In this document: positions 15,490-49,422 of the stretch, piece by piece
Layout: each line of letters opens with the position of its first letter
Position numbering within the stretch: the stretch's first letter is position 1
Program-made: the position numbers and the translations under genes
Source: Tribonema minus
Lineage: Eukaryota; Sar; Xanthophyceae; Tribonematales; Tribonemataceae
NCBI GenBank assembly: GCA_017506865.1
Contig: JAFCMP010000279.1
Span: 124,001 to 188,000 of the forward strand
Direction of reading: 5' to 3'
DNA length: 64,000 bases
The notes under the pieces: model-generated
What the model was told of the DNA's origin: nothing
The model's input: only the letters and a program-made list of their open reading frames with translations
Database searches by the model: none

Positions 15490-15899
15490 TGCCATGAACT
15501 CGGATGGAACTTAGATGCATTCCACAAAGCATTCACATGCTACAGCAGCAGCACGCAGCCAACAACAAAGCAGAAAGACTTGCTGTGCAATAGGGTAGTC
15601 CAGCACCCACCGATTGCTTCAGTGAATTTCCTTCTCAAGTACGCAACGGACTGCATGTGGACTTGACTGACTAACATTTTCAGCATCATCGACGGGTTGA
15701 AATGGCGCCACAGGCCAGAGTGGTGTTGCCACTGTTTAGCTACACCAGCAGCAGCAGCAGCGGCATGACTGCAAGCCTGATAATTGAAGCGGTGTGGTGT
15801 ACCAGCCAATAGTAAATACATGGTCGGCTTGCCTGAGGTAAACGAGGCCCAGCCTCCTGCTGCCCTTTGCTCCCAGCAGCAGCTCCTGCCCACCAGCAA

Positions 15900-16610
15900 T
15901 CACACAGCAGCCTCCACAGAGGCGGCAGCGACGTCTGTCCACACGAGCTTGTCAACCGCCCAAGGGGCATTCGGATTTGACACATTGTTGCATATTTTAT
16001 ACTTCTGCATGAGGTCGTTGACCTCTGCGACGATGCCACGCTTCTCGTCCTAGGGAACGAGAACGCCAGGCAGCTCCTGTTGCCCACGCGCCCAGAGCTG
16101 AAAGCATTCGTGGCAGACCAGGGCGGTCGCCTTGATCTCGATGAAGTAGCACACCTTGACGTCCTTATCCTTCGCCATTGCGGCTTTGAGCTTCCTATAG
16201 AAGTGATGCGCGGGCATGCATCTGTCTCGGCCGATGTGCTAGGAGTGGCATTCTCTGCCTTAGCAGCAGTGCCTGGAGACACGCTAAGTGTGGCCGATGC
16301 GATCAAATGGCCAGACTTTGCGTGGGCAAGAGCTCGGCGGTACTCTGCGATTGCAATGGAGTCCTCCATCAACGCGCCGTCCATCTTGAAATAGAAAACC
16401 CTGACTTGGCCTTCGTCACGGACACTGTTTTCAAGCTTTAGCCAGTCGCCTTTGTAAGTGCACTTGGCGCACTCTCGAAGCGTTTCCCCGGCATGGCAGG
16501 TCAACTTGCGCATCACCTGCCCCATCTCTCTATTCTGCTGCAGTCCCGGCCGTGCGAACATAACTTCAGACGTTGAACCATCGTTTATTCGCAGTCGGCT
16601 TCTCTGAAAA
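15900..16610 (-). pseudogene. broken gene of unknown family with frameshift and in-frame TAG
   Basis: On the minus strand a protein-like frame runs from about 16610 (KLTCHAGETLRECAKCTYKG, then VRVFYFKMDGALMEDSIAIA). It changes frame at about 16215, continues (FYRKLKAAMAKDKDVKVCYF, then IEIKATALVCHECFQLWARG), meets TAG at 16050-16052, and resumes in the same frame (DEKRGIVAEVNDLMQKYKIC) to a TGA at 15900. Continued protein-like sequence past both breaks is the mark of a recent pseudogene. Two segments share a VRVFYF/VKVCYF pattern and two Cys pairs occur. The family is unknown to me. Confidence 0.5.
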
Positions 16611-16639
16611 TGGGAGCGGCGTGGTGCAGCGGCAGCAGC

Positions 16640-18267
16640 AAGGACAACAGCAGCCAAAGTGGGCAGAGAACAACATGGCCTGGAGTCATTACTCACTCCT
16701 ACAAGGACGGCCGTATCACAACAGTGTTTCAGGCCGCCATCCAGAGGTCGCTGGGCTATTCCAAGCCTATAGAGGCTTACAGGGTAAATGACATGATGGG
16801 CTTTTTCATCGATTACCTGAAGCCTCTGGAACCGGACGACATGGTGAACACATGGAAACGCATGGCCGGGAGGGCGAATCAGCGGCTTTTGATGGATCAA
16901 GTGGGCCTCAGGCTGCTCCGCTGCATCAGCGCCAAGCTTCAGGTACGACAGTCACGTCATGCTCAAATCAACGAATCATACAGCTACCTTTCTTTCAAAA
17001 AAATCGAGGTCTAAACTTCCCTCTTGCGAACCCCCCCCCCCCCCCGCATCGCACACTGTAGCATGAGAACCCCATGTCTCCCAAGGGAGTTGTTGTGTGC
17101 ATGCAAGATCGGGGGTCTGCTACATGAGGTAGATCCGATCAAAGCACGTGTTCGTACAAGGCCGGGGTTTGTAGGCGAAAGTCACTCGAACTCTAAGTCT
17201 TGCTCGGTAGAATTCAGGCGAGATAAGCGTGTGCTACAGCGCGTAAACAGGTGGTGCAAGCTGCATTGCTGCAAAATCCTCTGCAGCCGTGAGTTTGCGG
17301 TGCTAAGGAGGTGTTTGAACCACGCGTGCTTGGGCTGGATCTGCAGAGCGTCCACTTGTGCGTGCTGCAGTATTCGTTGTGCGATGTATGTGACTGCAGT
17401 ATACCCATGTGCGTGCAAAAGGGGCGCACATTGTATAAGACCCCCCCCCCTCAAATAAGAGCTCCCGTTCCCCACCATGGGCCTTGCAGCGCGACTAGAC
17501 GCGGGGGTTATACCTCGTGATTTACGGTCAAATTACCGGCGACGGTGTACATCTAACATCTACTGCTGGTGACACCACCAGCTGTGCATCTCGAGCTCTA
17601 AGTGGTACAAAGACAGTGCCAACCACAATTTTTATGGTTGCAGAGAGACAGCAGGCCTCGTGTGCGGCCCTTTATATGAGACCACAAGTACACAGCCTTT
17701 GAGTGTATTACATTGCATGCAGATTCCACAACATCATGTTGTAGTGCAATGCACGTCCAACTGTCTGCTATGCGTCTGCCACGCGCCGCCCTCCAGTTGT
17801 GTGAAGCGATACATATGGTAGCGCCGTAAGTGCGCTGCGCCTCAAGCGCTTAGGGCACTTACACCCTCATCAGTCGTGAGTTCTATCTGAGCGCACTTGG
17901 TGCGCAGGCTCCAGTCACTTTTACCACGGGACCGAGATAAATGTTAAAACCACCTGTCAAACTTGGCAAAAACAGCAACATACTACATCCACTAATGCAC
18001 AATGCCTACTTCGAAGTAGGTTGTACATGTATTTGCCTTGCCCATGGTCACACTGACCACGCGTACCACCAACCCTGGCCATGCTTGTTGTGTGTGCTTG
18101 TGCAGCACCGGCAGGATGGCTTTCTGGGCTGGTTCACACAGGACGGGACTTTGGAGCGTGATGCTCTGCTGAGCTTTATCAGAGAGCACAACACCTCTGA
18201 GCCAGAGCTGGCGCTGGCGTTACAGCGACTGTTAAACCTGGTGGACGACCCAGAGGACCCACTGCAG
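16640..18267 (+). CDS. two linked exons of an unidentified gene
   Basis: Exon one is about 16640-16942 (left edge uncertain) and reads THSYKDGRITTVFQAAIQRS, then NDMMGFFIDYLKPLEPDD, ending at donor CAG/GTACGA. Exon two, 18106-18267, follows acceptor TTGTGCAG, reads LGWFTQDGTLERDALLSFIR, and ends CAG/GTGAAT. Both junctions are phase 0, supporting one transcript. The intron (16943-18105) includes long C runs at about 17030-17045 and 17440-17451. I do not recognise the protein. The first exon's left end overlaps the minus-strand pseudogene, so a mobile-element origin is possible. Confidence 0.45.
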
Positions 18268-22720: not shown

Positions 22721-22940
22721 GTGGGTAGGGCTGCGGTGCTGCGCAAAGAAAGATGCTGTGGCATGGTGAAGTGATAGGATGTGCGTGAACCCTCTGTTTG
22801 TGGTTCACGAGCGGCTCTGGAAAACACAGAGTGATACTTGACCTAGGCTGTCTGCCATCCGCCACGGTCGGGATTCAGTAAATCAGCAGACATTCTTCGA
22901 AGAAGCACCAGAAGTCAAGTGTGGGCAGATCATTTCATCC

Positions 22941-23026
22941 TTATGAGGGCATGCTGCCGCAGGCTGCGAACAGCAGATTGCCCTTGACCAGGGCAGACGT
23001 CGCGACGTCCGTTTAATACTCAAGTT
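22941..23026 (-). ncRNA. 86-bp structured block downstream of the Fanzor gene (candidate guide-RNA or element-end region)
   Basis: On the Fanzor strand this block lies about 260 bp past the Fanzor stop codon. Read that way it can form three consecutive stems: the palindrome GACGT-CGCG-ACGTC, then GCCC-TGGTCAA-GGGC, then GCTG-TTCG-CAGC, whose loop is a UUCG tetraloop. A copy of the same length occurs at 18403-18488 (5 of 86 bases differ). TnpB and Fanzor guide RNAs are known to come from the 3' side of the gene and the element's right end. Assigning that role here is inference from position and folding. Confidence 0.45.
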
Positions 23027-23282
23027 TCCTTGGTTGACCAAGGCCCGAAGGCACACCAGCCCAGAATTCTGGCGGGGGTAGAGCATTGTGCTACTGCCCG
23101 CCCGCCTGCAAACACAAATGTAGGATGTACACTACTTCTACCCTGTGTCTGCTGCTGTTGCAACCGTGGCTGGTGACATGTACTGCTGCAGCAGTCCCGC
23201 ACACCGCGTGACGAACCCCCCGTGCCTCCCCCCGCCCCCCTTCCCCCCGCCCCCCCCAGCTGCATGACCTCCATACTGCCCC

Positions 23283-26200
23283 TCATACCATTATGGCATC
23301 CTCCTCCTCGTCACCACCGCCGTCCCCGTCATCGACAGGACCCCCCCCCCCATCACCGCCCTCATCGCCGTCGCCGCCCTCCTCGCCATCCTCCTCCTCG
23401 TCGTCCTCCTCATCGCCGTCCTCCTCATCGTCGTCCTCCTCGTCGCTTTCCTCGTCTTCGGTGTCCTCCTCCTCTTCTTGATCCGCCGGGACATACCCCA
23501 GGATGCTGTCATTGACGCCGCACGTGGCATAGACGCCGCGCATGCCGAGGTTGGCACGCGCATTGGTGTCGCGGTCGATGACAGCAACCCCCCCCTCCGC
23601 CGCCTGAGCGAGAGGCGCAGTCCTCGTTCCAGCAAACCCTGTTTCTGTGCCCGAACTCATCGCCGCCGCCCCGCGTGGCCCCCCCCCACACACCAGGCAC
23701 GAGGCGGAACTGTACGGCTCTGGTGTGATGAGAGTAGGGCATCGGCATGCCAGCTGCGCCACCAGTTTCTTGATTGGAATGGCGGCGCGGCCGCCGGCGG
23801 GGAAGCGCGCACATGCGCCGAAGAAGATGATGCGACGGGGCCTCCTGTGCGTGTCGCGCCACCTCCTGTGCCTGCGCTTGCGGCATGGATACTCGCGGCC
23901 GCGGGACCGCACACGCTTCCATCCCGGCGGCCTGTGCTGCAGCCGAATTGGGGCCAGCTTTTCTGCCATCTTGGCAATGGCGGCCTGCTGCGCACGGAAG
24001 CGGCTGAACCTCTGATGCCGTCGTGCTGGGTGCAGCAGCTCTCCCCACATGGCATCTGCATGGTGCCCCCAAGTGGTGCAGTAGGCGCGCAGCACCTGCG
24101 ATGATGCAGCCACCAGGACGGGCACCGTGTGTACACAGAGCGGAATGAGTGGGGGCTACCATTACAGTGGGGGCAGGGGTAGAGTCACGTGAGGACCCAC
24201 CGCATCAGATTGTAGAGGACGTACTACCATCACGAAAGTCCCGAGGCTTCTCCCACTGTCAGAGCTCTGCACAGTGACTCACGATCATTGGCTCTACGCA
24301 ACGGTCATGCATCGTGTGCCACCAGACTGATTGAATGACAGGCCCTTGATGTGACATGCCATTGACCTTGAGAGCCCCAAGGCTTTTCAATGACAGCAAG
24401 GAACATACGAATGCACACATCACTCCAGACCTGCATTTCAAATTTTGATGCGCTGCTTCTGCTGTAACAGGCATGCGGCCCTTGCTGAGTCGACGACAAA
24501 TACGGTCACGTCCAACCGTCATGATGTCATGTGCTCGCTCCCATTGTGCATCGAGATAGACAGCAGTGGGCTCTTGCGCGTATTTGAACCAGTACAACAC
24601 AAGGCAAGAGCATCAAGAGCCTGCGGTTTTGGCTCAGACAACACAAGGACCGCTGCTGTTGCCCCGCAATTCTTACCTGATAGCGGCCCGTGCGCGTGTG
24701 CCTGTCCGCGAGCGCCGCGAGTGCATTGCTGTACGCCTGGTTGGCCCCGCGGCGTTGCGCCTCCCCCTGCTCATTGCGGACAGACAATGCCCATACGCGG
24801 TAATCCGCCCCTGACACCTCCTGTGCCGTTACGCACTCGCCCTCTGGGGGCGGATTTGCTACAAAATCCGCGGCGTTCTCGCGCCTCCAGCGCTGGCCAA
24901 GGGCAGTGACCGCACTGAAAGCCAGCACCTGGTCCGGGTCCACCCCAGTCACCACGACATGGTCCAGGGCGTGCAGCCGCTCCTGTGCAGCAGGGGTACC
25001 GTCCGCCACCGTAGCCGGCTCCGCCCCTATCTCCCTGTGCACACGCTGGAGGCGGAACACCCCATTGGGGCCTTCAGCCACCTCCCCCTCAGCACATCCC
25101 CCAGCTCCTCGTTGATGTACCCAACCTGTGACACAGAGGAGAATGCAATGAACATGAGTGGAGGGGGGGGGGCGTATCAGCAAGCTGTTGGGTGTACTAT
25201 TGTCAGTCTGCCCATGAGGCGTACGCTCTAGTACAGCGCTATGACAAACGGCGCCCTCCCTGATGCCATGCTGATGGCATGCTGGAGTCACAAAGGTGAG
25301 GCTACACAGTGTCTGCATGCAGTCGACATTGAATTTCACATCACATCCAGACTGCGTTGGCACGCCATCGAGTCAGATTGCAAATGGGACTTCATGGCGC
25401 AAGTATGACATACTATCAATACCACAGTGGCAATGTTCATGATCGGCAAGAAATTTCTTAAGCTGTTGAATCAACTAATCAACCTATGATTGAATCAACG
25501 GACGCAACAGTTGTGACGCGCGCCCCGCACCAGGTTGCATCTGCAACTGCAACATACGTTGTAGAACTCCGAGCAGGTCCGCCTAATGCAGCATCCAACA
25601 TCAAGTCGCCGAGTAGAAGTACCTGATTGATGAGCATTACACAATGGATGATGATGACAGCAGACACTTTCTCTTTCAACCAGACATTCCTACGAGCTAT
25701 CAGTAAGCACAGTGCTTGGCACCTGGTAGCCCCTCCGCGGCAGTTTGGTCAGGCCATGGGGGCCTTGGTGCGAGTCGTGGCTGGTGACCGGCAGAAGCTT
25801 GAGCTGGTGCCCATCGGTCATGACCGTCCTGTCCACGAGCCACGGGGCCAGGATGCGGTACCCTGGTTGGCCGGCGCGCTCAATTGCCCGCATCACACCG
25901 CGCTCGCTCCGCGCATAATGGTTGGTGCGCTGCCGCATGGTGGTGATGTTGGCTGCCTTCGCCCATGGCTGCATGAACTTAGCACACCACCAGGGGCCCC
26001 GGCCGGCCATCCGCGCAGCAAGACCTGAAAACAGCTCGCCCATGCCGCTGCACATTAGAGGGGCAGCGCATGACACAGCGACAACAACAGCACATCATGG
26101 CGAGACACTGTGTCATGTCACGCTGCGATGCGATGGACGCATACTAAATGTATGCAAGCATGGAACCAACCAACCGGTTTGAGCATATGACAATCTCAAT

Positions 26201-28376
26201 CATCACATTTGCCTGTGACTGCCAGGTTTCAGCATATGATGCTGACTCAGACAGCCGCTCAGTGATCACAATTTCACGCGTATTAGAGTGATGAGACCAT
26301 GATTGTCACACCAAAAGCTGACAAAGTGACAGGTCAAGCGCGCTGACAGGACATCTGCAGTGTGCTACTACCAGCAGCTAAGCTAATAGGACATCTGTAT
26401 GTAGTGTTCTGCTACAGTACTAGCAGGCTAAGTGTGCTCATCCTGTCCACATGCGCTACGCAGCGGGGCTATGCCTGCAGCCCTAGAGCACCCATATGCA
26501 CGCGTATGCCGTGCCCCTGTCCACTTTGGTCAGTGAACTTCAAGCGACTTGAAGGGCGAAGGACCTGATAACCACAGCTATGAGACAGATGCGGCAGCGT
26601 GTTGGCAACTCACGTGCGGTTGATGCGGATGAATGCCGGCTGGGGCTTGAAGCGGGGGAGGGGAGCAGTGAGCTTTGGAGGGACCGGCAGCAGGCCCCAC
26701 ACAGCGTCCCTGTGCTCGCGGCGCGCTGTGGCATCATCAGGAAACTGCTCGAAAAGCCCCGACATCAGATCCTGGTAGTCTGTACGGTCGGTCTCCACAT
26801 AGAGCTGCTGCAGCTGTGCCAAAAGCCGGCGCTTGCTAGAGTCGCTGTCGCCGTCGGGCAGGTGGCGCACCGTCTCGCAGATGTCCAGGATCTTGAGGTG
26901 ATCGGCGCCCTCCTGCACGTCTCCGTCATCGTCCAGCTCTGCGCCCCTGAAGCCCAGCTGGTTGAGGCGTGCCTGCAGCCCCCCGTGCAAGTCGTTGCCG
27001 GCATAGGTGGTCACCAGCTCAGCCAAGTCATGTACAGCCCTGGGAGCATCACGTGCAATCAATTTGGCAAGGGGAAGTCCGTAAGTTGGGTGGCAAACAA
27101 GCACTGTCGCTCTGACTGTACTTGCAGGCCACATCCAAGCCTGGCTAGAAGGCCAAGTCAAGAACATCCAGACTGCGGGTTGATTATTCTGAGCAGGCCA
27201 TCACACATCAACTTTCTTGCATGTAGGGACAGAATAAGGCGCATACATGCAGCGTGTGGCTGAACCAACAAGTAAGGTTGAAGTTGTCCACTACCACTTT
27301 GCGCATTGGCAAAAACAGCTGCCTGCTGCCATCTCCACCTCTGCCATGCAGGGCTGGCGCAAGTGTGGATGCAGCCTGCACCCAGCCCTCTGTCCAGGTT
27401 ACATCACGCCGAACTTAGTGCACTACAAAAACAGCAGAATTGTGAGCCGCTGAGACACCGGGTCCCGCATCACTTGCACAAATGCCATAGTGCTGATGAG
27501 AGGATGCGAGCCGTTCCAGAAACTGCTTGCAAATGTATGCAAAGTGCACCTTGTGAATACAGGGCATTTAACTAGGCATTTGCCGCCCACCTGGTGAACG
27601 GGCGCACAGTCATGTCGACTTGGGTATCAGGGTCATCATCGTCGTTTGTGATGTGCGCCCGCAGGGCTTGGAACAGGGCCCAGTACGTGATGGCCAAGCG
27701 CCGCCGCTGGAAGTGCACCTCTATGTACGTTTTGGCAACCGTCGCCATGTCCTTGGCCACATAGAGGAAGACCTCATGCAGGCGCCAAGGCGCCCAGGGG
27801 GCCTGCAGGGCCTGCAGATTGCTGTTGTGGCGCAGGTCCTGGAATCGTTGATGCGTCGAGGCGGGCAACTGCGCAACAACAAGCACACGAGGAGCACGTG
27901 TCACTCCACATGAACGAGTTGACCCCCTCGCACTGGCTTCCATGTGTTGACTCGGCGCTGTAGCCAGAGTGCCAGCTGACAGTGTCATGATCGCAGATTG
28001 ATTGAGTTTTGCATTCTGGTCAATGCGAGTGTCAGGCGTTGGGGAAGGGCTGTCCGAGATGCAGCTTCCATGTGCAGATGTAGTTGGCCAGCAAGGAGGC
28101 CAGATGCCGCACCTTCCCCACGTAATCTGCAGCGTCCTGGAGTGTTTGGGTGATGTCAAGGCTAGGGTGCCGATGCAGGACCTTTGCAAGGCTGCAAGAG
28201 ACGGTGTTGTGCCTGAGCTGTACGCCTTGATCCGTTCCAAGGATGCGTCGCCTTCGCTCGAAGGTCCGCAACAGAGTCTCGTGCAGCCGGCGTGTGTGTG
28301 AGGGCTCGTGCCCCTGGGCAGTATTCACCGCCGCCTGCCCGAACCTGTTGATGAGCCTCTCGACCAGGTCCGCCAT
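23283..28376 (-). CDS. Fanzor, eukaryotic TnpB-like RNA-guided nuclease
   Basis: Minus-strand exons: 28376 to about 28034, 27868-27591, 27039-26614, 26024-25723, 25125-24677, 24095-23283. The exon 2-6 boundaries have AG acceptors and GT donors and agree in phase; the first donor is unresolved and may be GC. Exon 1 has the helical N-terminal segment (HNTVSCSLAKVLHRHPSLD). Exon 4 has VDRTVMTDGHQLKL, like the family's TDG motif. Exon 5 has the RuvC-I aspartate (VVVTGVDPDQVLAF). Exon 6 has HPARRHQRFSRFRAQQ, the RuvC-II glutamate (ITPEPYSSASCLVCGG), the zinc ribbon and RuvC-III (IDRDTNARANL). The last 60 or so residues are mostly Asp/Glu. Frame changes at three G runs (25084-25088, 23679-23687, 23588-23595) mean it is either a pseudogene or carries homopolymer errors. 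Fanzors cut DNA using an RNA transcribed beside the gene. Confidence 0.85.
23286..23480 (-). repeat. low-complexity acidic-tail coding sequence
   Basis: Purine-rich GAG/GAC/GAT repeats on the minus strand encode long Glu/Asp runs at the Fanzor C-terminus, followed by Gly/Asp and a stop at 23283. Such a tail is not part of the nuclease core. Confidence 0.85.
23588..23700 (-). other. split zinc ribbon of the Fanzor
   Basis: The first Cys pair (CLVC) is in the main frame. The second pair (VCWNEDC, after GHRNR) is in another frame between a 9-base and an 8-base G run, and the main frame resumes at AVIDRDTNA. In the main frame alone the second pair is absent. Confidence 0.8.
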
Positions 28377-29399
28377 AATGTGAAAATCGCTGCACCATGT
28401 GGAGGAGACAATACATAGAGACAGGCTGTGACTGATGGCGTGGGCACATAATTAGGCACAGGTGGTTTGATCCTGAGTCAAAGTGGTTGTCCTGGGCGCT
28501 TAAAACATGGTGTGCTGGGGCTGACAAGTGGAAATTGCCGCTTTCGAGATACGCCATGTCACTCATCACAAGGATCCGCAAATCCCATTGGATACTATGC
28601 GAAAAAGCGATGCTGAATGCTGCACTGGCGATGCAATAAGATGATGCAATGAGATGCGGATAGCGAAGAAGCCTTGCAAGCACGGCGACATGTCCACACT
28701 TGAAACGACGAGGGATACCGTCGGACACTGCAGCCATCATGAGACACAGCAGCCTCAGGAAATACAAAACATACTGTAGCGGCGAACACAGCACCGACAT
28801 GGTGCACGAAGAAAGCGGACGCCAGCACCGTCAGCAATATATGACCTCAGCGAGTGCACACCTGTCGTCTCTGCAGCAGCGCCGCACCTCCAGGGGTTCT
28901 GAACAACACACTTCCGGAACTGCGGAGAGTCACATCTTTTCAAGTTGAGGCTGCGGTGCGCGCGCACAGTGAGTGCATTGCCAACTCACCTTCGGCGCTA
29001 TTGGCACATTGTGTCATTCCTGGTGCAGCATACTGGAATTGATGTCAAGATTGCAAGCTGGAACAGCAAGACATTTACAAGCAGCAGCGCTCATGGGTCT
29101 CATTGCATGTCGCTTACGCTGGGAAGGCCGGGAAAAACTCAAGAAAGCAGGGTCTAGTCGTAGTACATGACGCAACAACGCCTGCCAGCGCATGTAATAA
29201 TTGCGCTCGACTCACGCCTGGGTTCTGCTGTACAAACACATGCTTGCAGCTATGCACCCGCCGGCGGATGTCTGTACATGCCAGTTGCAATATTTTTCAT
29301 GGACCCATTATCATCATGCTGCATGCGCCACCAAGTAAGTTTCCGCACTCATGGCTTATGGCGATGTGCTATAATGAAGTGCCCATCTGACACAGGCGA
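28377..29399. other. Fanzor upstream region, no supported gene
   Basis: Would hold the Fanzor promoter and, if present, the left end of its element. I found no inverted copy of the 86-bp block here and no convincing upstream exon. Confidence 0.45.
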
Positions 29400-30827
29400 G
29401 GAAAATGGGCTGTTGCTGGTTCAGGGTCAGCGCTCACACGTGTCTCAGCAGGAGCAGCTGCACTCTGAAGCGGCGCGAGTACCGCAGCGCAAAAACATGT
29501 TCTGGCTCGTTACGCTGACGCGCTAGCCTATGCATTCTGTCGCGCATGCCTTCGGCCATGAGCTTAGCAGCTCGTGCCTGAGAAGACGTTGTTCTCCCAC
29601 GTGCCATCAGAGTAGCGTACACGCCAGCGGGACTGCGCGAAGTCACGTACCTGGCCCCACAAGTAGTCAGTCGAGTTCGGCACATCATTGACTGGCCGGA
29701 CCACCTGTGTGCCGCAAGGGTACCGCAGCAATGCAGCATCTTTGGACAGCGTGCGATATTTGCGGGGAAGGTGACGCTCAGCATATGAAGGAACGTTGCC
29801 TTGGTGCTTGAGCTTATACAAAGCATGAAAAGTGTCCAGTACCCATGGTGGTATGAACAACAGTTCTACAAGCTCTTTCTCGCACACCCACTCTGAAGTA
29901 GTGCCATCGCGCGCTAGCCACTTGCATGACCAGCCGCTGTCTTCAACTCTGCGGTCTAGTATCTGGCACAATCGCTCAGGGTCCAGCTGGTCAGGGTCCA
30001 GCTCTTGCAGTTGCGCGGAGTCTAGGAGGGCATGCACTCCCTCGACTTCAAGTCGCGGGTCTGGGGTGATATGGCTTCATGTTTTCAACATGCACGGTGG
30101 TCTCGCGTATGCGTGTGCCCATGAGTTGGCATTGAAAAGAAAGCCCTGCGTCACCGTACGGAGCTACTAGCTTCCAGGGGCCAGTGACATGCTCCTCAAT
30201 GGCGCTTGCGCGGCCGCGTGATGGTGGCTTCTTGATCCACACATAGTCACCGACCTCCAAGTGCACAGTGCGTTGAATTTGGTCGTTGCGAGCTTGGATG
30301 CGTTCAGTACGTCGCTGCAGCGCCTCGCCGACCGCTTCCTCAGCAAGCTTGAGATTTTCTTGCAGACATTTCACCTCAGCATGTAGGTCTTGTGAACTTG
30401 CAATCTCAGAGGTCGAAGCGTCAAGAGGGAAACGTGCTTCGCGACCGTAAACACAGAAGAATGGGGTCAAACGTATACATGCCAGCGTGCCTGGTAGCGA
30501 GAACAGAGTGTAGCAAGCGCTCTCTTGAAGCGCCCCTTCATGTTTTCAACGACGCCGTTTGACTGGGGCGATATGCGCTGGTTTCAATCTTGTGCACTTT
30601 AAAGAAGGTGCAGAGCGTGGTTATCAGCGCACTCATGAACTCTGCGGCTCTGTCAGACACCAGCTCTTTCACAAGCGCGCCGCACTCAAGGAGCACTTTT
30701 GCTAGTAGGGGTGCGGCCTCAGCTGCCGATCATGTCTGTACAGGGACAAGCCAACAGTAGCCTGATCTAGCTTCGGTGATGATTGAGCAAGTATCGATGC
30801 CCTAGGACGCCGATCTGAGTGTAGTCT
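29400..30827 (-). mobile_element. degraded Gypsy fragment (integrase and C-terminal region)
   Basis: The minus strand encodes pieces closely similar to the intact element: GPWKLVAPYGDAGLSFQCQL, KWLARDGTTSEWVCEKELVE and WGQVRDFAQSRWRVRYSDGT. Positions 29500-30827 match 32100-33490 of the intact element with frameshifts and a missing stretch near 30475. Positions 29420-29490 match 34040-34110, which is out of order, so the copy is rearranged. It ends abruptly where repeat R begins. Confidence 0.85.
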
Positions 30828-31728: not shown

Positions 31729-34700
31729 CTAACTCATGCGTGAGCGTTCGCTGGGTCTGGTGGCCTCCGCTCCAGTTGGCGGTTCCTCAGCAAGCTCACG
31801 TGCCAGTAACAAGTTCCAGGATGACTGCTCAGCATGAGCATCATCATGCTGGTATTCTGCTCTAAGCTTCAGGCGATCCTCTAGGGGCTTCTTTCCTCGC
31901 ATATTGGGAAACTTCACGTCAAATGTGAACTCCCCGCGGTCGCGCTTGGCGGAAACAAACCTGAGCAGAATGCCGCGGCTCCATCCAGAGGGAGACCGGT
32001 AGCGGAGCACTTGACCAACGTAGAGTGGTCCAAAATCACTTGGCATGCATGGACTCACAGTCACTCGTACGTTTGCAGGTAGGTCAGAGTCTGGGCTCAT
32101 GTCAAAGGCGGGTTCCGGCTGGTCACGCTGGCATGCGAGTCTGCGTAGTCTGTAACGCGTACTCTCAGCCAAGAGCTTGCCAGCGCGCACTTGCAATGAA
32201 GTCAAGTCTTCCCACGTCCCGTCCGTGTAGTACACACGCCAACGAGCTCGTGCAAAGTCACGTACTTGACCCCACAAGTAGGCAGTCGTGCCCGGCGTGT
32301 CTGTAACTTGCCGTACCGCTTGAGTGCCACAGGGGTATTGTTGTAATGCAGCATCTTTGGACAGCGTGCGATCCCCATGGGGGCTATGGCGCTCAGCGTA
32401 CGAGGGAATGTTGCCTTGGTGCTTGAGCTCGTACAGAGCGTGAAAGGTGTCCAGTGCCCAAGGTGGTATCAACAGCAATTCCACTAGCTCTTTCTCGCGC
32501 ACCCATTCCGAAGTGGCACCATCGCGTGCTAGCCACTTGTATGACCAGCTGCCGTCCTCCTCTGCCTTACGGTCTAGCAACTGGTACAGCTTCTGGTCGG
32601 GGTCTAGTTCTTGTAGCTGCGCGGGGTCTAGGAGGGCATGAACTCCCTCAACCTCAAGTCGGGTAGGTCTAGGGTGATAGGGCTTCATGTTCTCCACATG
32701 CGCGTCTGTCTCGCGTATGCGCGTGCCCATGAGTTGGCACTGAAAAGAGAGCCCAGAATCACCGTTGTGAGCAACTAGCTTCCACGGACCAGTGTAATGC
32801 TCTTCAATGGCACTTGCACGGCCGCGCGACGGTGGCTTCTTGATCAACACATAGTCACCGACTTCAAGGTGCAGAGTGCGTGAAATCTGGTCATTGCGAG
32901 TCTGGATGCGTTCAGCGCGGCGCTGCAACGCCTCGTCAATAACTTCTTTCGCCATTCTGAGGTTCTCCTGCAGACGCTGCACTTCTGCGCGCAGGTCTTG
33001 CGAGTTTCCAGCCTCAGAAGTGAAAGCGTCGAGGGGGAAGCGCGCCTCGCGGCCAAAAACACAGAAGAATGGGGTCAGGCCCGTCTCTTCCCTCGGCGTG
33101 TTCCTGAGCGCGAATTGCACAGCATCAAGGTTTTCGTGCCAGCGTGCCTGGTAGTGAGAACACAGTCTAGCGAGCGCCCTCTTGATGCGCCCGTTCAGGT
33201 TCTCAACAACGCCGTTAGATTGAGGATGGTATGTGCTGGTTTCAATCTTGCAAGCTGCAAAGAAGCGACATAAGCTGGTAATGAGCGAACTCATGAACTC
33301 AGCCGCCTGGTCGGACACCAGTTCTTCCACTAGCGCGCCGCACTCAAGGAGCACTTTCGCCAGCAGAGGAGCGGTCTCGGCTGCCGTTCGCGTCTTTACA
33401 GGAAAGATCCAGCAGTATCCAGATCGAGCTTCTGCAACGTCAAGCAGGTATCGGTGTCCTTCTAGGGAAAGGACGCCGGGTCCCGTGTAGTCAATATGCA
33501 GGCGTTGCCACATGCGTAGGGGTGGCATCAGGGCTTGTTTATACCTGGCAGTAGCTTGTGGTTTGGTTTGCTGGCAAGGTATGCACGAGCGTACATAGTC
33601 TCGGACGTCTGCACCCAAACCTCTCCAGTACATGCGCTCTAGCACCTTGGCGTGCGTAGCCGCAGTTGAGGGGTGCTGTGCACTGCCGTCGTCGTGACAA
33701 AGGCGAAGTGCAAGTGGCTTCAAAGCGTCGGGGACTACCCACTGGGTAATTAGGGAGCCCTTCTTGGACCGACTAGCCGTGAAATGCACAAGCAGGCCGT
33801 CAGGTTCAACTGTGAAAAACTCTTGATTTTGACTCGCGAATTTGGCAATGCTCGGGTCAAGGGTCTGGTCGTGTGTTTCTAGGTAGCGTTTCAAGGACGA
33901 GCAGAAGTGATCACGTTCCTGCCAACGCACAAAGTTCTTGCGTTCTAGCATGGCAGGTGAAGATTCCGGGCGTGAGTTGGTTTCTTCAGTCTGGGCAGAC
34001 ACAGCGTCATCTGAAGTGTCCATCTCAGCATCTTCAAGTTCTGGTTCGGGATCGGCACTCACATGTGTCTCAGCAGGAGTAGCTGCGCTCTGGAGCGGCG
34101 CGAGTGCCGCAGCGCAACTGTCCCACACATCTGGCGAGTACGTACTCGGTTGCAGGTTGCAAAGTACTGAAGCGAGGGGCGTGAGCTCTGGCTCTGTCAG
34201 CTCTTCACCTCCCTCTTCTTTGAAAAGTGCGGTGTCTCCGCATGCACTTTCACGCGCAGAGTCATACATGAGTTCATGGACTTCCTGGGGTCCTAGTGTA
34301 CTCATGCAACTAGTCAGGTTTGTCGAGATTAGCGCGAGCTTGTTGAACTTGAAGTTCGTGCCACCTGGATATGCAGCATAGGCGCCTATGCGGCCCACAC
34401 ATGCAGGTGATTCTTCAAGTTGTTCATCTTCAAATCGTACGCCGCTGGGAGGCGCAGTTCCAGCATCAGTGCAGTCTGGCCACTGCTCATCTGATTCAGC
34501 AGGTTCATAGCTTCGGGGCCCCAGTATTTCTGTCATTTGGGGCATGCGTGAGGGGCAGTCCGCATTGCCATTGTCTTTTCCAGGGCGGTGTACGACCATG
34601 ATGTCATACCGCTGAAGACGCATGGCCCAGTGCAGCAGTTTGCTATTATGATTGTTCCAGGTTAACAGCCAGCGTAACGCAGAGGCGTCGGTTACGACGG

Positions 34701-37700
34701 TTACAGGCCTGCCCCAGATGTAGTTACGGAAGTTGTTCAGCGCCAGCACTACAGCCAGACATTCCAGCGCAGTTGCACCAAGTTTTGCGTCCTGCACGGA
34801 ATTAATCTTGCTGAAAAATGCTACAACTACCTCTCTGGCAGGTCTACCATCGACCGTCTTGGCACGCCGTGTGCTTGCCCAAGGGAAGCCTTTGTGTCTT
34901 TCACGCAGCTTGTCAAGTGGTACAAACTGCGAGAGCACACCGGCCACGGCTTGCTTGCTTGCATCTGTGTGCACTACAAAAGGCAAGTCAAAGTCCGGGT
35001 GCATGATTACAGGAGCGTTTGACATGGCGTGCTTAAGTTTCGCAAGCGCTTCCTGGCGGCGCTTGTTCCACGACATGTCTGCGCCATCACGCGTACACTC
35101 GACCAGCGGAGCTGCAATATGCGCAAAACGATGTATGTAGCGCCTATAGTAGTTAAAGCAGCCTAGCAGGACCTGCATAAGGCGCCTGTCTACCTTCCCG
35201 TCCTTGCCAACGGGAGGCATCATGTCGACCATTGCCTTAACTTTGTCCTCACAGGGCTTGATGCCATACCTGCCCACCTTGTGGCCCAAGTACGTAACTT
35301 CGTCGGCAAAGAGCTGACACTTGTGCCTAGATACACTCATGCCGTACTCTTCCACACGACGGAGCACGTCGTCCAAGTGAGCAATATCATCTTCAAGCGT
35401 CTTGCTGTGCACGAGCACGTCGTCTACGTACACACATGCATGCGTTTGTCTGGCTGAGCCGAGCAGCTCATGCATGCATCTCGTGAATATACTGGGTAGG
35501 CACACTAGTCCAAACGGTGCAACCTTGTACACCCAGAGTGAGCCATCAGGTGCCCGGAATGCCGTTTTACAAGCTGAATCTTTGGTCATGGGAATTTGCC
35601 TATAACCAGATGCAAAGTCAAGCGCGGAGAATACGCGAGCACCAGAGCATTTTTGGACCAAGTCGTCCATATTGCCTAGCCCGTATTCGTCGCGGCGAGT
35701 GACTTTATTCAAGGGTCTGTAATCATCACAGAAGCGAACTTTGTCTTTCTGTGTTACCAGCACAGGATTACTGGCCCAGGGGCCGCTGGCAGGCCTAATC
35801 TGACCGCGTTTACGCTCATTTTCAACGGCCTTAAAGATGACTTTGGCCTCTCGCTCGGCCCACCTGCGTGCTTTGTCGGCAATCGGCGTTGCATCGCCAG
35901 CATCGATGTCAACGTCAAAGCGGTCCGTCACCTTGGGGTTCTTGGGGTCTTGCGCGAAGGCGCTGCGCCGGCGGCGGAGCACTTCCATGGCGCGCTCGTA
36001 GTAGGTGACGCCATGTTGATCGCGTTGCTTGAGAACGTCAAGCACCTTGCCGTCCTTGCATAGCACTTCATGTAACTCCTCATCTGTGCATGTGCCCAAG
36101 GTGGCATTATGCTCCTCTGCCACCTTGCGTCTGAACGCAGCTCTTTCTGCTTCAGCTTGTGTGACAGGGTCTGGCTCAGATGTATTGCGCTCTGGCGCGC
36201 AAGAGGAGACTGGCTGTCGTGCAGGTCCAGACCTGTTCACGGCAGGTGTGTCTTGGCCAAGATGCTTCAGCGCTATTCTAGTCAGGTTTGCAGTGAGTTC
36301 TTCCTTGCCAACGTCCATGTCGCAGATCATGTCAGGTGTTTCAATGACACCCACGATCGCGCCTTCTGGTATGAACACTGGCATGGTGGAGGTGTTCTCG
36401 GCTAGCAGCCCAAGCGGCTTGTGCGGTGACGCGAAATTCACCGTATCCATGAGCACAGTGCCTTGAGCAGCCAGCCTGTTCACTGTCACAGACGCCTGTG
36501 GCGCGTCAGCAGTGAGCAGCACTTCAACAGGTCCAGAGCACTGTACTGGCGGGTGTGACACAACCTCAATGGTTCTAGCGGTGTCAGCATTGATCACTTG
36601 ATCATGCGTTGCGCGCAAAAGGCATGTGCGCGCTAGCAAAGTGGGTTTCTGGGATGCTTGCACTCTGGCAGTGCCCACTTTGATCGAGTTTGCCGCGGGG
36701 GGGTCTAGAGTCCCCAACTTCGTATGCTCGCGCATAGGCACAACAGGTCCAGCAGAGCCAGCGGGATGGAAACGCATCCCGTGCTCATATGTGATGGATG
36801 AGCCAAACTTGCCAAAGAAGCTAGACCCTAGGATGGCCTCATAGGGCAAGTCCACCACATAGAAAGCATGTGTGAAAATGGTGTCCTTGAAGCGCACCTG
36901 GGCGTCCACAACACCAGTAATCGGCACAGATTTCTTGGCATCAGCTAGTTCAACACTGGTAAAGTCGCCATCAGAGAGCGGGCAAATCGAACCATGTGGC
37001 AGTTGTTGTGCGCGCTCAGTGTTGATGAACTCGGCCTCGGCGCCGTTGTCCACCAGCGCGTCAAGTACCAGCTCTTGTATGCCATCACCGACCTGTGTGC
37101 GCACTGGCATGCGCACAAAGCCGTTTTTCTTGGGTTTGCCAATCACATGTGCTCTCTGCAAGGTTTTAGGCGGCTTGTGACGTGCTTGCCATCTGGGCAT
37201 GGCTTTAAACCCGTCAGTAGCGACAGCGCTCAGGCCAGGTCGCTGAGCATCAGACTGCTGAGCACCTGAGTCGTTGTCTGTACCGCTCATGACGTCAAGT
37301 GGCACCTCAACAAGGCCTGTGTTCGACGTCTTGCCGGAATCAGAAGCAGCAGGCTCTTCTTCATCCTCGCCGTATACCCAGGCAGTTTTTGAAGTTAGCA
37401 CGTCACTTCCAGAAGTCAGCGTGGCAAGCAACATGCGCCCTGCATTGCGTGCGAACTGGTAGAAGCTTCTCACGCAAGCACCAGCTAGGCGCAGCACTGC
37501 AGGTTGCTCAAGACTGGACTCCACCAGCCATTCAGGAGGGGGAGAGGTGTGATCATGCACCACTACCTCACCCGGTGCGAGCTCGGTGGTATCCTTAGGA
37601 CTAGGCCATTCTGTAGGCAGGGATGCAACTGCATGTAAAGCAAGCATGATTGCAGCCACACAGTTGGGTTGCACTAGGTTTGCAGCCCAGCGTTTCTTCT

Positions 37701-38199
37701 GGGTAAGCGTTCCTTCAGGGTAAGGCTCGCTATAGCCAAGCAAGGACATGACTTGGTCAGGGCTCAACACAAGAGCTTTACTGGCCGGTCCCACATCTTT
37801 TTCACGCGGCTGGTAAGATGAGGAAGGGCCTCGTCCGGGTTGACGAGTAACAGGGCTAGGAAGCGGCATGTCAGTGAACAGCACGCCTGGTGTCGTGGGC
37901 TGCCTAGGGTCCCAGTAAAACGTGTCATGGGAGCAGCCAAGATGCTCGCGAACAGTGCTAGGCTTGCTGATGCGGAAGCGCTCATTGAGAATTGCATTCA
38001 GGCGTGCAAAGCGCTCAGGCAGTCGAGAAGTGTTCGGAGCAGACACATTGTAAACGCGCTCGCGTGAAGATGCACCATTTACGTCTGTGCCACGAAACTG
38101 CACCTCATAGGTGGAATACCCCTTTGTTCCCGTGATGCGGCAAAAGTCGCGCCACGAGTTGGATAGGAGCATCCTAGGCACGTTCTCGTTCACTATCAA
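31729..38199 (-). CDS. pol: Gypsy pol polyprotein (protease, RT, RNase H, integrase, reader-like C-terminus)
   Basis: A 2156-residue open frame. Aspartic protease at about 370-480, with active-site text ALVDNGAEAEF (DNG rather than the usual DSG/DTG). Reverse transcriptase at about 790-1000 with YVDD near 925. RNase H from about 1075 (VVHTDASKQA). Integrase zinc finger (H...H, CIPC) near 1540 and DDE triad in HIDYTGP, VSDQAAEF and GVVENLNG near 1570, 1630 and 1665. GPY/F-type segment near 1800. A chromodomain-like stretch (WSYKWLARDGATSEWVREKE) near 1885, and two tudor-like stretches near 1990 (RWRVYYTDGTWEDL) and 2075. The first 370 residues are not recognised. The start Met is uncertain, since gag-pol fusion or frameshift is usual. 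Confidence 0.93.
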   Translation of the reverse strand: MIVNENVPRMLLSNSWRDFCRITGTKGYSTYEVQFRGTDVNGASSRERVYNVSAPNTSRLPERFARLNAILNERFRISKPSTVREHLGCSHDTFYWDPRQPTTPGVLFTDMPLPSPVTRQPGRGPSSSYQPREKDVGPASKALVLSPDQVMSLLGYSEPYPEGTLTQKKRWAANLVQPNCVAAIMLALHAVASLPTEWPSPKDTTELAPGEVVVHDHTSPPPEWLVESSLEQPAVLRLAGACVRSFYQFARNAGRMLLATLTSGSDVLTSKTAWVYGEDEEEPAASDSGKTSNTGLVEVPLDVMSGTDNDSGAQQSDAQRPGLSAVATDGFKAMPRWQARHKPPKTLQRAHVIGKPKKNGFVRMPVRTQVGDGIQELVLDALVDNGAEAEFINTERAQQLPHGSICPLSDGDFTSVELADAKKSVPITGVVDAQVRFKDTIFTHAFYVVDLPYEAILGSSFFGKFGSSITYEHGMRFHPAGSAGPVVPMREHTKLGTLDPPAANSIKVGTARVQASQKPTLLARTCLLRATHDQVINADTARTIEVVSHPPVQCSGPVEVLLTADAPQASVTVNRLAAQGTVLMDTVNFASPHKPLGLLAENTSTMPVFIPEGAIVGVIETPDMICDMDVGKEELTANLTRIALKHLGQDTPAVNRSGPARQPVSSCAPERNTSEPDPVTQAEAERAAFRRKVAEEHNATLGTCTDEELHEVLCKDGKVLDVLKQRDQHGVTYYERAMEVLRRRRSAFAQDPKNPKVTDRFDVDIDAGDATPIADKARRWAEREAKVIFKAVENERKRGQIRPASGPWASNPVLVTQKDKVRFCDDYRPLNKVTRRDEYGLGNMDDLVQKCSGARVFSALDFASGYRQIPMTKDSACKTAFRAPDGSLWVYKVAPFGLVCLPSIFTRCMHELLGSARQTHACVYVDDVLVHSKTLEDDIAHLDDVLRRVEEYGMSVSRHKCQLFADEVTYLGHKVGRYGIKPCEDKVKAMVDMMPPVGKDGKVDRRLMQVLLGCFNYYRRYIHRFAHIAAPLVECTRDGADMSWNKRRQEALAKLKHAMSNAPVIMHPDFDLPFVVHTDASKQAVAGVLSQFVPLDKLRERHKGFPWASTRRAKTVDGRPAREVVVAFFSKINSVQDAKLGATALECLAVVLALNNFRNYIWGRPVTVVTDASALRWLLTWNNHNSKLLHWAMRLQRYDIMVVHRPGKDNGNADCPSRMPQMTEILGPRSYEPAESDEQWPDCTDAGTAPPSGVRFEDEQLEESPACVGRIGAYAAYPGGTNFKFNKLALISTNLTSCMSTLGPQEVHELMYDSARESACGDTALFKEEGGEELTEPELTPLASVLCNLQPSTYSPDVWDSCAAALAPLQSAATPAETHVSADPEPELEDAEMDTSDDAVSAQTEETNSRPESSPAMLERKNFVRWQERDHFCSSLKRYLETHDQTLDPSIAKFASQNQEFFTVEPDGLLVHFTASRSKKGSLITQWVVPDALKPLALRLCHDDGSAQHPSTAATHAKVLERMYWRGLGADVRDYVRSCIPCQQTKPQATARYKQALMPPLRMWQRLHIDYTGPGVLSLEGHRYLLDVAEARSGYCWIFPVKTRTAAETAPLLAKVLLECGALVEELVSDQAAEFMSSLITSLCRFFAACKIETSTYHPQSNGVVENLNGRIKRALARLCSHYQARWHENLDAVQFALRNTPREETGLTPFFCVFGREARFPLDAFTSEAGNSQDLRAEVQRLQENLRMAKEVIDEALQRRAERIQTRNDQISRTLHLEVGDYVLIKKPPSRGRASAIEEHYTGPWKLVAHNGDSGLSFQCQLMGTRIRETDAHVENMKPYHPRPTRLEVEGVHALLDPAQLQELDPDQKLYQLLDRKAEEDGSWSYKWLARDGATSEWVREKELVELLLIPPWALDTFHALYELKHQGNIPSYAERHSPHGDRTLSKDAALQQYPCGTQAVRQVTDTPGTTAYLWGQVRDFARARWRVYYTDGTWEDLTSLQVRAGKLLAESTRYRLRRLACQRDQPEPAFDMSPDSDLPANVRVTVSPCMPSDFGPLYVGQVLRYRSPSGWSRGILLRFVSAKRDRGEFTFDVKFPNMRGKKPLEDRLKLRAEYQHDDAHAEQSSWNLLLARELAEEPPTGAEATRPSERSRMS

Positions 38200-38551: not shown

Positions 38552-40250
38552 TCACGCCGGCATTCGGCACCTCCTTAGGCTGCGGACGCGGCACGGGCGA
38601 AGTGGCGAGAGAGATGGGGCCAGGGTTAGAATCAGGAGCTTTGTCTTACTTCTAGATGCGGTGTCTGGGTCGAGAGTGACATCTTGTGCAAGTGATGCAC
38701 AACCAGGCGTGTCACCAGTGTCCGGAGCAGTCACGTGTGCATCAAAGTCAGGCATGCACGCTGCTGATTCACTATGCGCGTACAAGACCGAGGCTAGCAT
38801 GTAAATGCCAACTGTCTTGTCAAGCACGCATGTGACCGGTGCGCTGGTCTTAACGGCCACTGGCTGCGCAGCTGGTACTTCAAACATGTCTTGCGTGGAG
38901 CTAATGAGATGTTTGACTAGCCCAAGCGGCTCTGGCGCGTCAACATCCACGGGTACACTAGGCAAGACACGAGAAGTGATTCCAGGTGACTCACTCGTCC
39001 GGTTGCGCTTTTGGGCGCAGAGCTCGTCACGTCTGGCTTCAAGCTGGTCACGGGGCCGCTTCTCCTTCTTCAGCTTCTCGATGCGCTGGTCGTACCAAGG
39101 GGCGCGCTGCACCTGGTGCTCGTGCAGCTTGCCGTCGCCGAGGAAATGCTTGTGGCAGCTTCTGGGGCTTGCCCGGGTCGGCTGACTTGTCAGGCTGCCT
39201 CTGGGGGGTCTTGGCGGCAGACATCGCGGCGGACTTGGCAGCGCCGCCGGCCGGGCTGGCGCCGCTGGAGCTAGTTGCGATAGCAGTGCCGCCGGTGATG
39301 CCGGCGAGGGCGTAGCTGGCGAGCTCTGCAGCCGACTTGAGGTTGTGCTTGAAGACTGCGAGCTCCTCGGGGCGCAGCGCCTTGTAGTAATCGGCGGCGC
39401 GCGCGCGGGGTCGAGAATATCGCCTGCGCCGACAGTCAGCCGCTGGTGTAGCTGAGTGTAGCTGGGTGCTGGCGCGAAGGGGTAGGCGCCCGTGCTCGGG
39501 GGTACTGCTGCTGAGCGCTGGGGTGTACTGGTAGCTGCTGAGCGCTGGGGGCAGCTGCTGAGCGCTGGGGGCAGTTGCTGAGCGCTGGGGGCAGTTGCTG
39601 GGCGCCAAAGAGCTCGTGGCGCGCGTGCTGGGCAGCGTCGGCAAAGAGCGCCGGCGCTGTTTCGATGACGAAGGGCTTGGACACCGCGGTGAGCTTCGTC
39701 GCGAGCGGCGGAGGCCAGCGCCAAGTTGCGCTCGATCTCTGCGTCAATGTCGCTCGCAGCGTTCTCAGTGCTCTCGCGGTTCATTGGAAGGGTCGAGTTT
39801 GCTAGGTGCGACGGCGGAAATAGTATTAGAGAAGCTCGACGGGTTGAAGAAAGGAGCGGGGGCGTGGCTCATGGTGGCGCGCATGCTCTCCGCGGCATGG
39901 CGCACAGCCGCGTCATCAACGCCCGGGAGGCGTTCCAGAGTTCCGGAGTCCCTGACAATTGTGTCAAGCTGCACAGACCCAGCACTGGGCGTCGGCACAG
40001 TCGCAGCGGACGTTGCAGCCGGCAGGTTTCCCAGCGTCACGGGGGTACCAGCAGCGGCGGCAGTTACAGCAGGCGGGGTGGTAGACATCGCGGGCGAGAC
40101 GATTGAGGTGACCGCGACCGACGTACCGACCTGTTCAGCTGGAGGCGCTGACACAGGCTGCGCAGAGCAAGGCTGCGCCTGGGTACCCGCACTACTGCTC
40201 CCACTTTCACCACTAGCTCCCGCAACTCCAGTTTCCCCTTAGGCCGCTTC
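38552..40250 (-). pseudogene. gag: Gypsy gag-like region, frame-disrupted
   Basis: Coding-like segments occur in all three minus frames in order: 40154-39765 (TVPTPSAGSVQLDTIVRD), about 39784-39700 (SDIDAEIERNLALASAARDE), about 39730-39600 (KPFVIETAPALFADAAQHAR), about 39400-39150 (YYKALRPEELAVFKHNLKSA), then 39150-38552 (EKLKKEKRPRDQLEARRDEL). The position before pol and the charged helical content suit gag, but I see no CCHC knuckle. A 20-bp minisatellite at 39506-39606 can alone change the frame. Confidence 0.6.
39506..39606. repeat. 20-bp minisatellite inside gag
   Basis: Three perfect or near-perfect units (39536-39555, 39556-39575, 39576-39595) of TGCTGAGCGCTGGGGGCAGY plus partial units on both sides. 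As 20 is not a multiple of 3, each unit gained or lost shifts the frame. Confidence 0.9.
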
Positions 40251-48143: not shown

Positions 48144-49422
48144 GCATGGTTAACCCCACATGCCTCAGCAACAATGGTGATGCTGGGACGCAGCAGGCTG
48201 CAGCTGGAAGTGGCCACGACATGGCAACTGGCGACCACAACTCTGGCACCGCACTCACTGCTGCAACGGAGCCATCGGTAGCTGGTGCGCCTCCACGTAC
48301 TTCAGTCGCAAAGGCACCCTCTGCTCGCAGCAATGGTGCCAGACACCCTAGCAGGCAGTGTACTCATGTGGGATGCTCGGACATTTGGTGGCCCGCTGCT
48401 GGAAGCTGCATCCCCAGTTGAAACGCAATTTGTCGCCTATAAAGGCGGCCTCAACAGCAATAGCGTCCCGAAAGCAGCCATCAGCGGCTCAGACTCCCGT
48501 GAAGCGTCGTGGTGGTGGTGGTGACAACACACACCGTCATGCTGGTGCGTGTCTACGTCCTATAGCTGGCTCAAAGAGTTCAGCAGGTGCCAGCAATACA
48601 GCCGGCACGGAGGAGCGTGCTTTGCGCAAGCAGGTGGCACGACTCAAACAGGATGCTGCTGTCTTGCGCGAACGCTTGGCGGGATTGGAGAGCCGGAGGA
48701 AGGAGTCCGCTGTTCCCGCAGATGCCCATGCGGCGCCCTGTTGCAGTGGGCAGCAGTCAACATCCTTCCGCGCTACGCTTCAAGCGATTGTGGAGCTGTG
48801 TCAGCAGCTGCTGGCAGATGCCGCAGATCCAACGTCAAAAGTGGTTTTGCTCAGCAGTGCGCTCGCGGACGGGAGCAGTGGCGTGACGGCACCAGCATGC
48901 GGCAGCAGTGGCAGCAACAGCACAGTGTGTGGTGGAGCCAAACCCAGCACCATCAACTCTGAGCACTGCAACACAGGTGCGCGCACGGCTGCTGGGAACA
49001 GCGGCCATGACATACGTGGAAGCTGCACTGGAGTCAAGTTGGTGATCAAGGCAAGTGTCGCGACGTCTGTGCGGAGAAAAGCGGCTGCTCCTCATCGCCG
49101 CACTGCAGCTGGTGCTAGCGTCAACATGGCTCAGCAAACGGTAGCTGCGCAGGCGTCTTCGAGGAAACCCGCAGCTACTGCTGGCTCCATGCATGCAGAT
49201 GACATGCTTCCTGCAGCTGTCGCACCGCCTTTGACAGCAAAGCACACAGGCGCTATCACACACAACGCGACAGCAACGGCTCCCGTGGCACCTCACGTGG
49301 CTCTGCGGTACGGCAGCCTCATTCACAACCAAGGGCCATGCGGACGGCTCAGCAGGCGGCTCGGTCTCAGCGTAAGCATGGAGTTATCAGTGCACCGCCT
49401 GCAACACGCAGTGCGCCCGTGA
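48098..49422 (+). pseudogene. CCHC zinc-knuckle and coiled-coil segment, copy A, with a frame break
   Basis: Coding signal enters in one frame to RHPSRQC at 48360, then continues in another frame from the next bases as YSCGMLGHLVARCWKLHP. Taken together this is a CX2CX4HX4C nucleic-acid-binding knuckle with a one-base loss between its first and second Cys. After it comes a Lys/Arg-rich stretch, a leucine-heptad coiled coil (LRKQVARLKQDAAVLRERLA, about 48620-48700) and a Ser/Thr/Ala-rich tail to 49422. Knuckle plus coiled coil is typical of retroelement Gag proteins. Copy B at 51.4-52.6 kb has the same break. Confidence 0.6.

Follow-up and report, generated by a model that had tools for sequence, protein, structure and literature searches.

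A probable decayed copy of a multicopy mobile element encoding a spliced Fanzor1-type nuclease in the yellow-green alga Tribonema minus

A stretch of 64,000 nucleotides from the yellow-green alga Tribonema minus (Xanthophyceae), here called the window, carries on its minus strand a split gene that an earlier note, made from the sequence alone, had taken for a spliced Fanzor, a eukaryotic TnpB-like nuclease, with an acidic tail. The locus raises the question of what this gene is, whether it is still intact and to what larger unit it belongs. Comparison with other copies and with relatives indicates that the window very probably holds a decayed copy of a multicopy T. minus mobile element, anchored at its 3′ end, whose one recognised gene, interrupted by five introns, encodes a Fanzor1-type nuclease that ends in an acidic tail.

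Fanzors have been distinguished by a DPG motif together with a glutamate six residues before the zinc-ribbon CxxC (PMC10711439), and this fingerprint is present in the near-intact copy C224. The DPG motif was found in 13 of the 14 T. minus proteins that hold the segment, the exception being P0013, the public gene model at the window locus (P0024, the fifteenth protein, is without the segment), and the second cysteine pair, C-x4-C, and the [ND]RD motif are present in all 12 copies compared. In the window, the motifs named in the earlier note occur on the minus strand in the expected order (TVMTDGHQ at 25827-25804, TGVDPD at 24949-24929, HPARRHQRF at 24032-24006 and DRDTNA from 23576), and the RuvC-II glutamate indeed precedes CLVC, at a spacing of six residues. 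The pattern E-x6-CxxC...[ND]RD was found once in the six frames of the window, and neither after masking of the gene nor in 60 first-order Markov randomisations. Predicted structures display the RuvC/Fanzor fold: seven Fanzor chains are the best matches in the PDB to the AlphaFold model of P0002, a relative, and five head those to the poor model of the window protein itself. The proposal of a spliced Fanzor is thus supported by the fingerprint of C224 and by structure prediction.

Alignment of the window copy with four others establishes a family gene of six exons, whose five introns measure 543-615 nt wherever no deletion has shortened them. The features of the window copy are as follows.

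22938-28958, minus strand: mobile element, window copy, about 6.0 kb, with the 3′ end at 22938 and the 5′ end near 28958, where DNA homology with other copies stops.
28036-28376, minus strand: exon 1 remnant, 341 nt, ATG at 28376-28374; by copy comparison, the normal 3′ part and the donor are absent.
28030-28040, minus strand: junction of a deletion of about 490 bp; five other copies are longer here.
27591-27868, minus strand: exon 2, with AG/GT ends; C71 and C224 preserve its frame.
26614-27039, minus strand: exon 3, from copy alignment and splice ends.
25723-26047, minus strand: exon 4, including the TDG segment (25827-25804), from copy comparison; 68 genome matches as a query.
24677-25125, minus strand: exon 5, including RuvC-I (VTGVDPD, where relatives have DPG) and, in the window copy, a frame break of one base, from copy alignment.
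23283-24095, minus strand: exon 6, with RuvC-II, zinc ribbon, RuvC-III, acidic tail and stop codon, from motif reading.
23688-23726, minus strand: RuvC-II alternative glutamate and first zinc-ribbon cysteine pair, TPEPYSSASCLVC, from the published fingerprint (PMC10711439).
23617-23649, minus strand: HRNRVCWNEDC, second cysteine pair, in a frame that differs from its flanks in the window copy and in frame in relatives, from copy comparison.
23544-23576, minus strand: RuvC-III, DRDTNARANLG, from motif reading.
23286-23477, minus strand: acidic tail, imperfect short tandem repeats, present in other copies with differing lengths.
22938-23282, minus strand: 3′ untranslated region to the element end, a candidate omega-RNA region, with hairpins predicted by folding near 23010-22996 and 22984-22946.

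The unit is therefore larger than the span of 23283-28376 first proposed. The six-exon layout of the earlier note holds for introns 2-5 (551, 566, 597 and 581 nt), all of which run from GT to AG, but exon 1 is truncated and exon 5 lies in two frames; likewise, the motif assigned to RuvC-I is present, but its DPD is a change from the DPG of the family. The public model P0013 (824 aa), on the same contig of 1,057,420 bases, skips the damage: its modelled intron begins at a GT that lies earlier in exon 1, and the beginning of exon 5 is left out of it. The near-equal lengths of the introns (introns 2-5, at window 27590-24096, together with intron 1 as seen in other copies), which share no clear sequence relationship, are an oddity; an introner origin was considered and not retained, as the best mutual similarity, of 32 nt (E 9e-4), is not convincing and none was found to the sequence compared.

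The element is present in many copies. A query made of the first 200 exon 6 codons gave 160 genome matches, distant relatives and pieces included; 15 places, among them the window, cover at least 181 of the 200 residues at 82-100% identity, two of which carry an in-frame stop. When one 3′ end served as the query, in a scan that scored 40 of 97 candidates and listed 40 places, homology ended within a few bases of the common terminus ...GCATGCCCTCATAATGA in 29 of the 39 non-query places listed, including the window; a further eight stop 21 bases earlier and two elsewhere, and in the two early-stopping copies that were read (L013 and L042) the terminal hairpin is 10 nt shorter. The 17-base terminus, with A or T allowed, occurs 33 times in the genome and its reversed control not at all. 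The 5′ ends, on the other hand, differ between copies, several of which run upstream into common sequence.

Whether these copies arose by transposition has to be weighed against their stemming mainly from segmental or tandem duplication of repeat-rich regions. Sequence comparison indicates that some copies do come from segmental duplication: L013 and L018 have a right flank in common at 98.7%, two copies on C525 lie 5.5 kb apart and upstream flanks are common to several copies. As the main source, however, duplication appears somewhat unlikely, since the DNA directly past the 3′ terminus differs among the 15 copies shown, except for the pairs L013/L018 and L022/L040, and since the 3′ junction of the C40 copy interrupts a retroelement of which the window holds the uninterrupted form (empty site near 35538-35550 by eye; aligned flank from 35579). 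How the mobile element moves is suggested by analogy: one fixed end, a variable other end, a predicted terminal hairpin and Helitron proteins encoded elsewhere (15 genome matches, 14 of them above the cut-off) make movement in trans by a Helitron plausible. No transposase was found by Pfam among the exon pieces and ten further open reading frames (ORFs) of the window copy, nor any recombinase, the IS607 serine type included, among the 16 ORF pieces scanned, and self-comparison of five copies, made for terminal inverted repeats, gave no repeat pair more than 1.5 kb apart, in a scan coarse enough to miss a known 17-base repeat, which is direct and was seen by eye at both element ends.

Fanzor copies are clustered, several per contig (C9, C59, C224, C525 and others), with tandem and segmental duplicates, and the sequence upstream of the C97 copy resembles the intron that precedes exon 6 in another, divergent spliced Fanzor. 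Next to the element in the window, at about 29416-30803, lies a retroelement fragment, 74% similar to a 2156-aa ORF at 31729-38199 (minus strand) with reverse transcriptase, RNase H and integrase domains, which we take to be Ty3/gypsy-like.

In known Fanzors, an RNA from the element 3′ end takes its guide from flanking sequence, and a short motif is required beside the target (PMC10432273, PMC10711439). An omega RNA with a flank-derived guide would agree with the sharply defined 3′ end, the flanks that differ between copies and the predicted 3′ hairpins. The terminal hairpin was predicted in four of five copies folded (the sequence of the fifth is incomplete, and L019 was left out of the fold), and in the window copy the element end and then the flanking, potential guide DNA lie beyond the predicted hairpins; no Rfam family reached the gathering threshold anywhere in the window, 3′ region included, and no tRNA was found there. 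By analogy with characterized Fanzors, the spliced protein of near-intact copies would bind an omega RNA made from the element 3′ end and running past ...CTCATAATGA into the flanking DNA, so that each insertion site would supply its own guide; the Fanzor would open DNA beside a short motif for cutting by its RuvC Asp-Glu-Asp centre, which may favour persistence or spread of the element.

Several results weigh against the interpretation of the locus as a Fanzor mobile element. None of the Pfam TnpB/Fanzor profiles matched the window exons or the joined protein of the near-intact copy, and a search of the PDB by sequence yielded no hit better than E 0.8 for that protein or than E 0.49 for L045. 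The Foldseek TM-scores by query are 0.41-0.45 for P0002 and as low as 0.16-0.18 for the window protein, whose model is poor (mean pLDDT 47.5, pTM 0.35) and whose best VIA Z, 7.0, is not clear of the Cas12 rows. No target-site duplication was found, the C40 empty site revealing the 3′ side alone, nor was an autonomous partner with the same ends. Finally, none of the 31 predicted pairs in the 3′ end shows a two-sided change, for which reason an omega RNA from the element is something that we infer. The lack of a significant profile match, named in the earlier note as refuting the proposal, is thus nearly the case here, and the link to Fanzors runs through relatives and fold. A match to PF07282 served as a search criterion in PMC10711439; among the relatives, L045 reached 26.1 of the 26.3 bits needed, and 14 genome places lie above the cut-off. 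In viral contigs, none of 29 pattern matches was confirmed as a relative, and PHROGs gave no match for P0002 or P0013.

The family of the window copy is divided at RuvC-II, since glutamate is present in five of 16 spliced copies, including that in the window, and glutamine in the other 11. A 15-base motif allowing either residue has 36 exact sites in the genome, 17 in the Gln form and hence, by subtraction and with frames unchecked, 19 in the Glu form. Several linked bases set the Gln haplotype apart, and a tree of the 16 copies does not resolve the Gln copies as monophyletic or of single origin. Divergence is lowest at codon position 2, at 0.022-0.027 versus 0.056-0.080 in introns in nine of ten copy pairs and 0.012 versus 0.036 in the tenth, although in two of the ten divergence is as high at position 1 as at position 3, or higher, which counts against constraint. 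In exon 6, the ratio of nonsynonymous to synonymous differences (pN/pS), computed with the window copy, L022, L023 and L040 excluded, which leaves 12 of the 16 copies, is 0.39 for Gln-Gln pairs, 0.36 for Glu-Gln pairs and 0.31 for the single Glu-Glu pair. Together, the few substitutions at position 2, the larger number in introns and the pN/pS values point to coding constraint on the family during at least part of its history.

Bacterial nuclease-dead TnpB repressors exist, and by analogy the Gln copies might be nuclease-dead RNA-guided DNA binders, as their share of the copies and of the exact motif sites and the constraint kept in Gln-Gln pairs would allow. Nevertheless, this constraint may be older than the change from Glu to Gln, the Gln copies do not resolve as one lineage, and an amide need not kill the nuclease, because asparagine in place of aspartate in the triad reportedly enhances the activity of SpuFz1 (PMC11423790); we consider such a role unlikely.

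A possible third state of RuvC-II is found in an intronless clade of related Fanzor1 proteins that comprises four full-length T. minus ORFs and the metagenomic relatives P0002 and P0003. The moved catalytic glutamate separates Fanzors from most other TnpB-like nucleases and, according to one proposal, may lower damaging collateral cleavage (PMC10711439). In all seven rows of the clade (L044, L050, L053 and P0001-P0004, with L053 and P0001 being the same gene, and P0004 coming from the contig of the fourth ORF), the Fanzor Glu position is occupied by Ala or Cys, and a FEDG motif places a glutamate at the strand end where TnpB and Cas12 carry theirs; the 16 other aligned rows have FG, with Glu (14) or Gln (two) at the Fanzor position. 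Not included in this alignment and tree were L049, which is short and has Glu and FFG, and L052, which is near to L043. In the tree, the seven rows group as a single clade (100/100) whose neighbours keep the Fanzor-position Glu, deeper branches being weak (bootstrap 57-81). In the P0002 model, Asp534 of DPG ends strand 528-534 and the new Glu680 ends strand 674-680, a predicted placement that agrees with a RuvC centre; because the model has low confidence around RuvC-III, active-site distances cannot be claimed. The ratio of nonsynonymous to synonymous rates (dN/dS) of 0.135 (L044-L050) and 0.139 (L044-L053), at a dS of about 1.3, near saturation, and of 0.235 for the close pair L050-L053, argues for purifying selection on the clade, and the idea that it is nuclease-dead was dropped once the second glutamate appeared in the alignments.

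On the aligned sequences, the chances that the FEDG clade has reversed the Fanzor active-site rearrangement seem evenly balanced. Fanzors with a canonical glutamate have been judged apparently mis-annotated prokaryotic TnpBs (PMC10711439), whereas in this clade the T. minus members come from long contigs of the algal assembly and stand among relatives that keep the Fanzor-position Glu, and the nearest solved folds are Fanzors. A further protein search added no member outside T. minus, and no report of a Fanzor clade with the glutamate moved back was seen in the open-licence PMC literature, as judged from titles and the openings of abstracts. If the FEDG glutamate is catalytic, these would be natural Fanzors with a TnpB-like centre. 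Counting the Glu and Gln forms of the spliced family as well, a single genome would then contain three RuvC-II states (Glu in the Fanzor place, Gln there and Glu in the TnpB place), a natural test of the collateral-cleavage idea.

A DDE transposase (PF01609) adjoins the intronless Fanzors L044 (E 1.7e-14), L043 (2.2e-14), which keeps the Fanzor-position Glu, and L053 (2.1e-7); a similar ORF pair, outside the profile scan, adjoins L050. This profile fits IS4-type transposases. Two intronless Fanzor-like ORFs, L046 (C90:1048k) and L047 (C179:106k), have DSG for DPG at RuvC-I, and L055 (C179:452k), at 1699-3504 (minus strand), encodes a 601-aa TnpB/Fanzor2-like protein (PF07282, E 2.7e-12; HTH_OrfB_IS605). 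The public model P0005 (C112) merges the L044 Fanzor with the following sequence, which by its motif resembles an OTU-type protease.

The window copy itself is damaged. About 490 bp, comprising the end of exon 1, the donor and part of intron 1, are lost at 28035 and retained in the five other copies readable across this point (C71, C224, C40, C223 and C9:303k), exon 1 being 432 nt long in C71, C224 and C40 and 431 in C223. Exon 5 measures 449 nt, against 450 or 456 nt in the four other aligned copies, and the stretch of exon 6 after CLVC is in a frame other than that of relatives, so that the second cysteine pair is absent from the window protein. Together with DPD in place of DPG, these changes mark the window copy, by comparison, as a decayed member of a family that has DPG, and it is probably no longer a working nuclease. 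Alone among the five aligned copies, C224 can be read without a break from exon 1 through exon 6 until the tail is reached, and there it too changes frame.

It could be argued that the copy is intact in the living alga and that its lesions arose in G-rich tracts as errors of assembly or consensus, given that the frame breaks of exons 5 and 6 sit in or near G runs and that P0013, being derived from the same assembly, is no independent check. This is quite improbable, as the clean-edged loss and the DPG-to-DPD change are not homopolymer errors, and other copies likewise carry stops or frame breaks.

The acidic C-terminal run, put at about 60 residues in the earlier note, is 64 residues long, with 41 Asp/Glu, 15 Gly and no Lys or Arg, and is encoded by the short repeats listed above. 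It is a low-complexity extension of the family, found also in the divergent spliced protein P0022 and absent from P0001-P0004; a role in nuclear import, in tuning RNA or DNA binding or as a brake on nucleic-acid binding is a guess. A host-domesticated Fanzor with a regulatory role, the tail serving as an activation or nucleic-acid-mimic domain, might be read from the constraint on the exons and from the tails of other copies and of P0022, but is highly improbable in view of the many copies at different places with a common element end, several of them broken, and of a tail length that varies through short-repeat indels. Elsewhere in the window, long ORFs without a Pfam match at E<=0.001 lie at 38552-39784 and 15740-16900 (minus strand) and at 45696-48143 and 48358-49422 (plus strand).

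Fanzor1 elements have been described before, both spliced ones in algae and ones of IS4 type (PMC3627910, PMC13236599); of these papers, the latter, which brings together Fanzor and Tribonema within the open-licence PMC literature, does not describe the window family in its available portion. Identity to the solved Fanzors SpuFz1, GtFz1 and PpFz is 10-13%. The catalytic glutamate of SpuFz1 is E541 (PMC11423790), which would correspond to the alternative position, occupied by Ala or Cys in the P0002 clade. With TnpB and Cas12f, the proteins considered here have in common the RuvC core, the zinc ribbon and, in the P0002 clade, the canonical-strand glutamate, but differ in the DPG motif and, for P0002, in a fold nearer to Fanzors. 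The intronless Fanzor1 genes beside a DDE transposase are like the IS4-type Fanzor1 of Ectocarpus virus EsV-1 and of endogenous viral elements (PMC3627910, PMC13236599), whereas genes of the window family are spliced and the scanned ORFs of the window copy yielded no transposase of this kind. The closest likeness in organization is to CRe-1, -2 and -3 of Chlamydomonas reinhardtii, of Helitron2 type, which are also algal multicopy Fanzor1 elements with many introns (5 and 10 exons in CRe), non-autonomous, with intact 3′ ends, 5′-truncated copies and a hairpin near the 3′ end (PMC3627910). The T. minus family differs in its acidic tail and its Gln/Glu split at RuvC-II, and its possible relation to Helitrons is suggested by 3′ anchoring, the predicted terminal hairpin and the Helitron proteins of the genome; as a spliced, high-copy family, it provides a stramenopile case beside the spliced Fanzor1 elements reported in a green alga.

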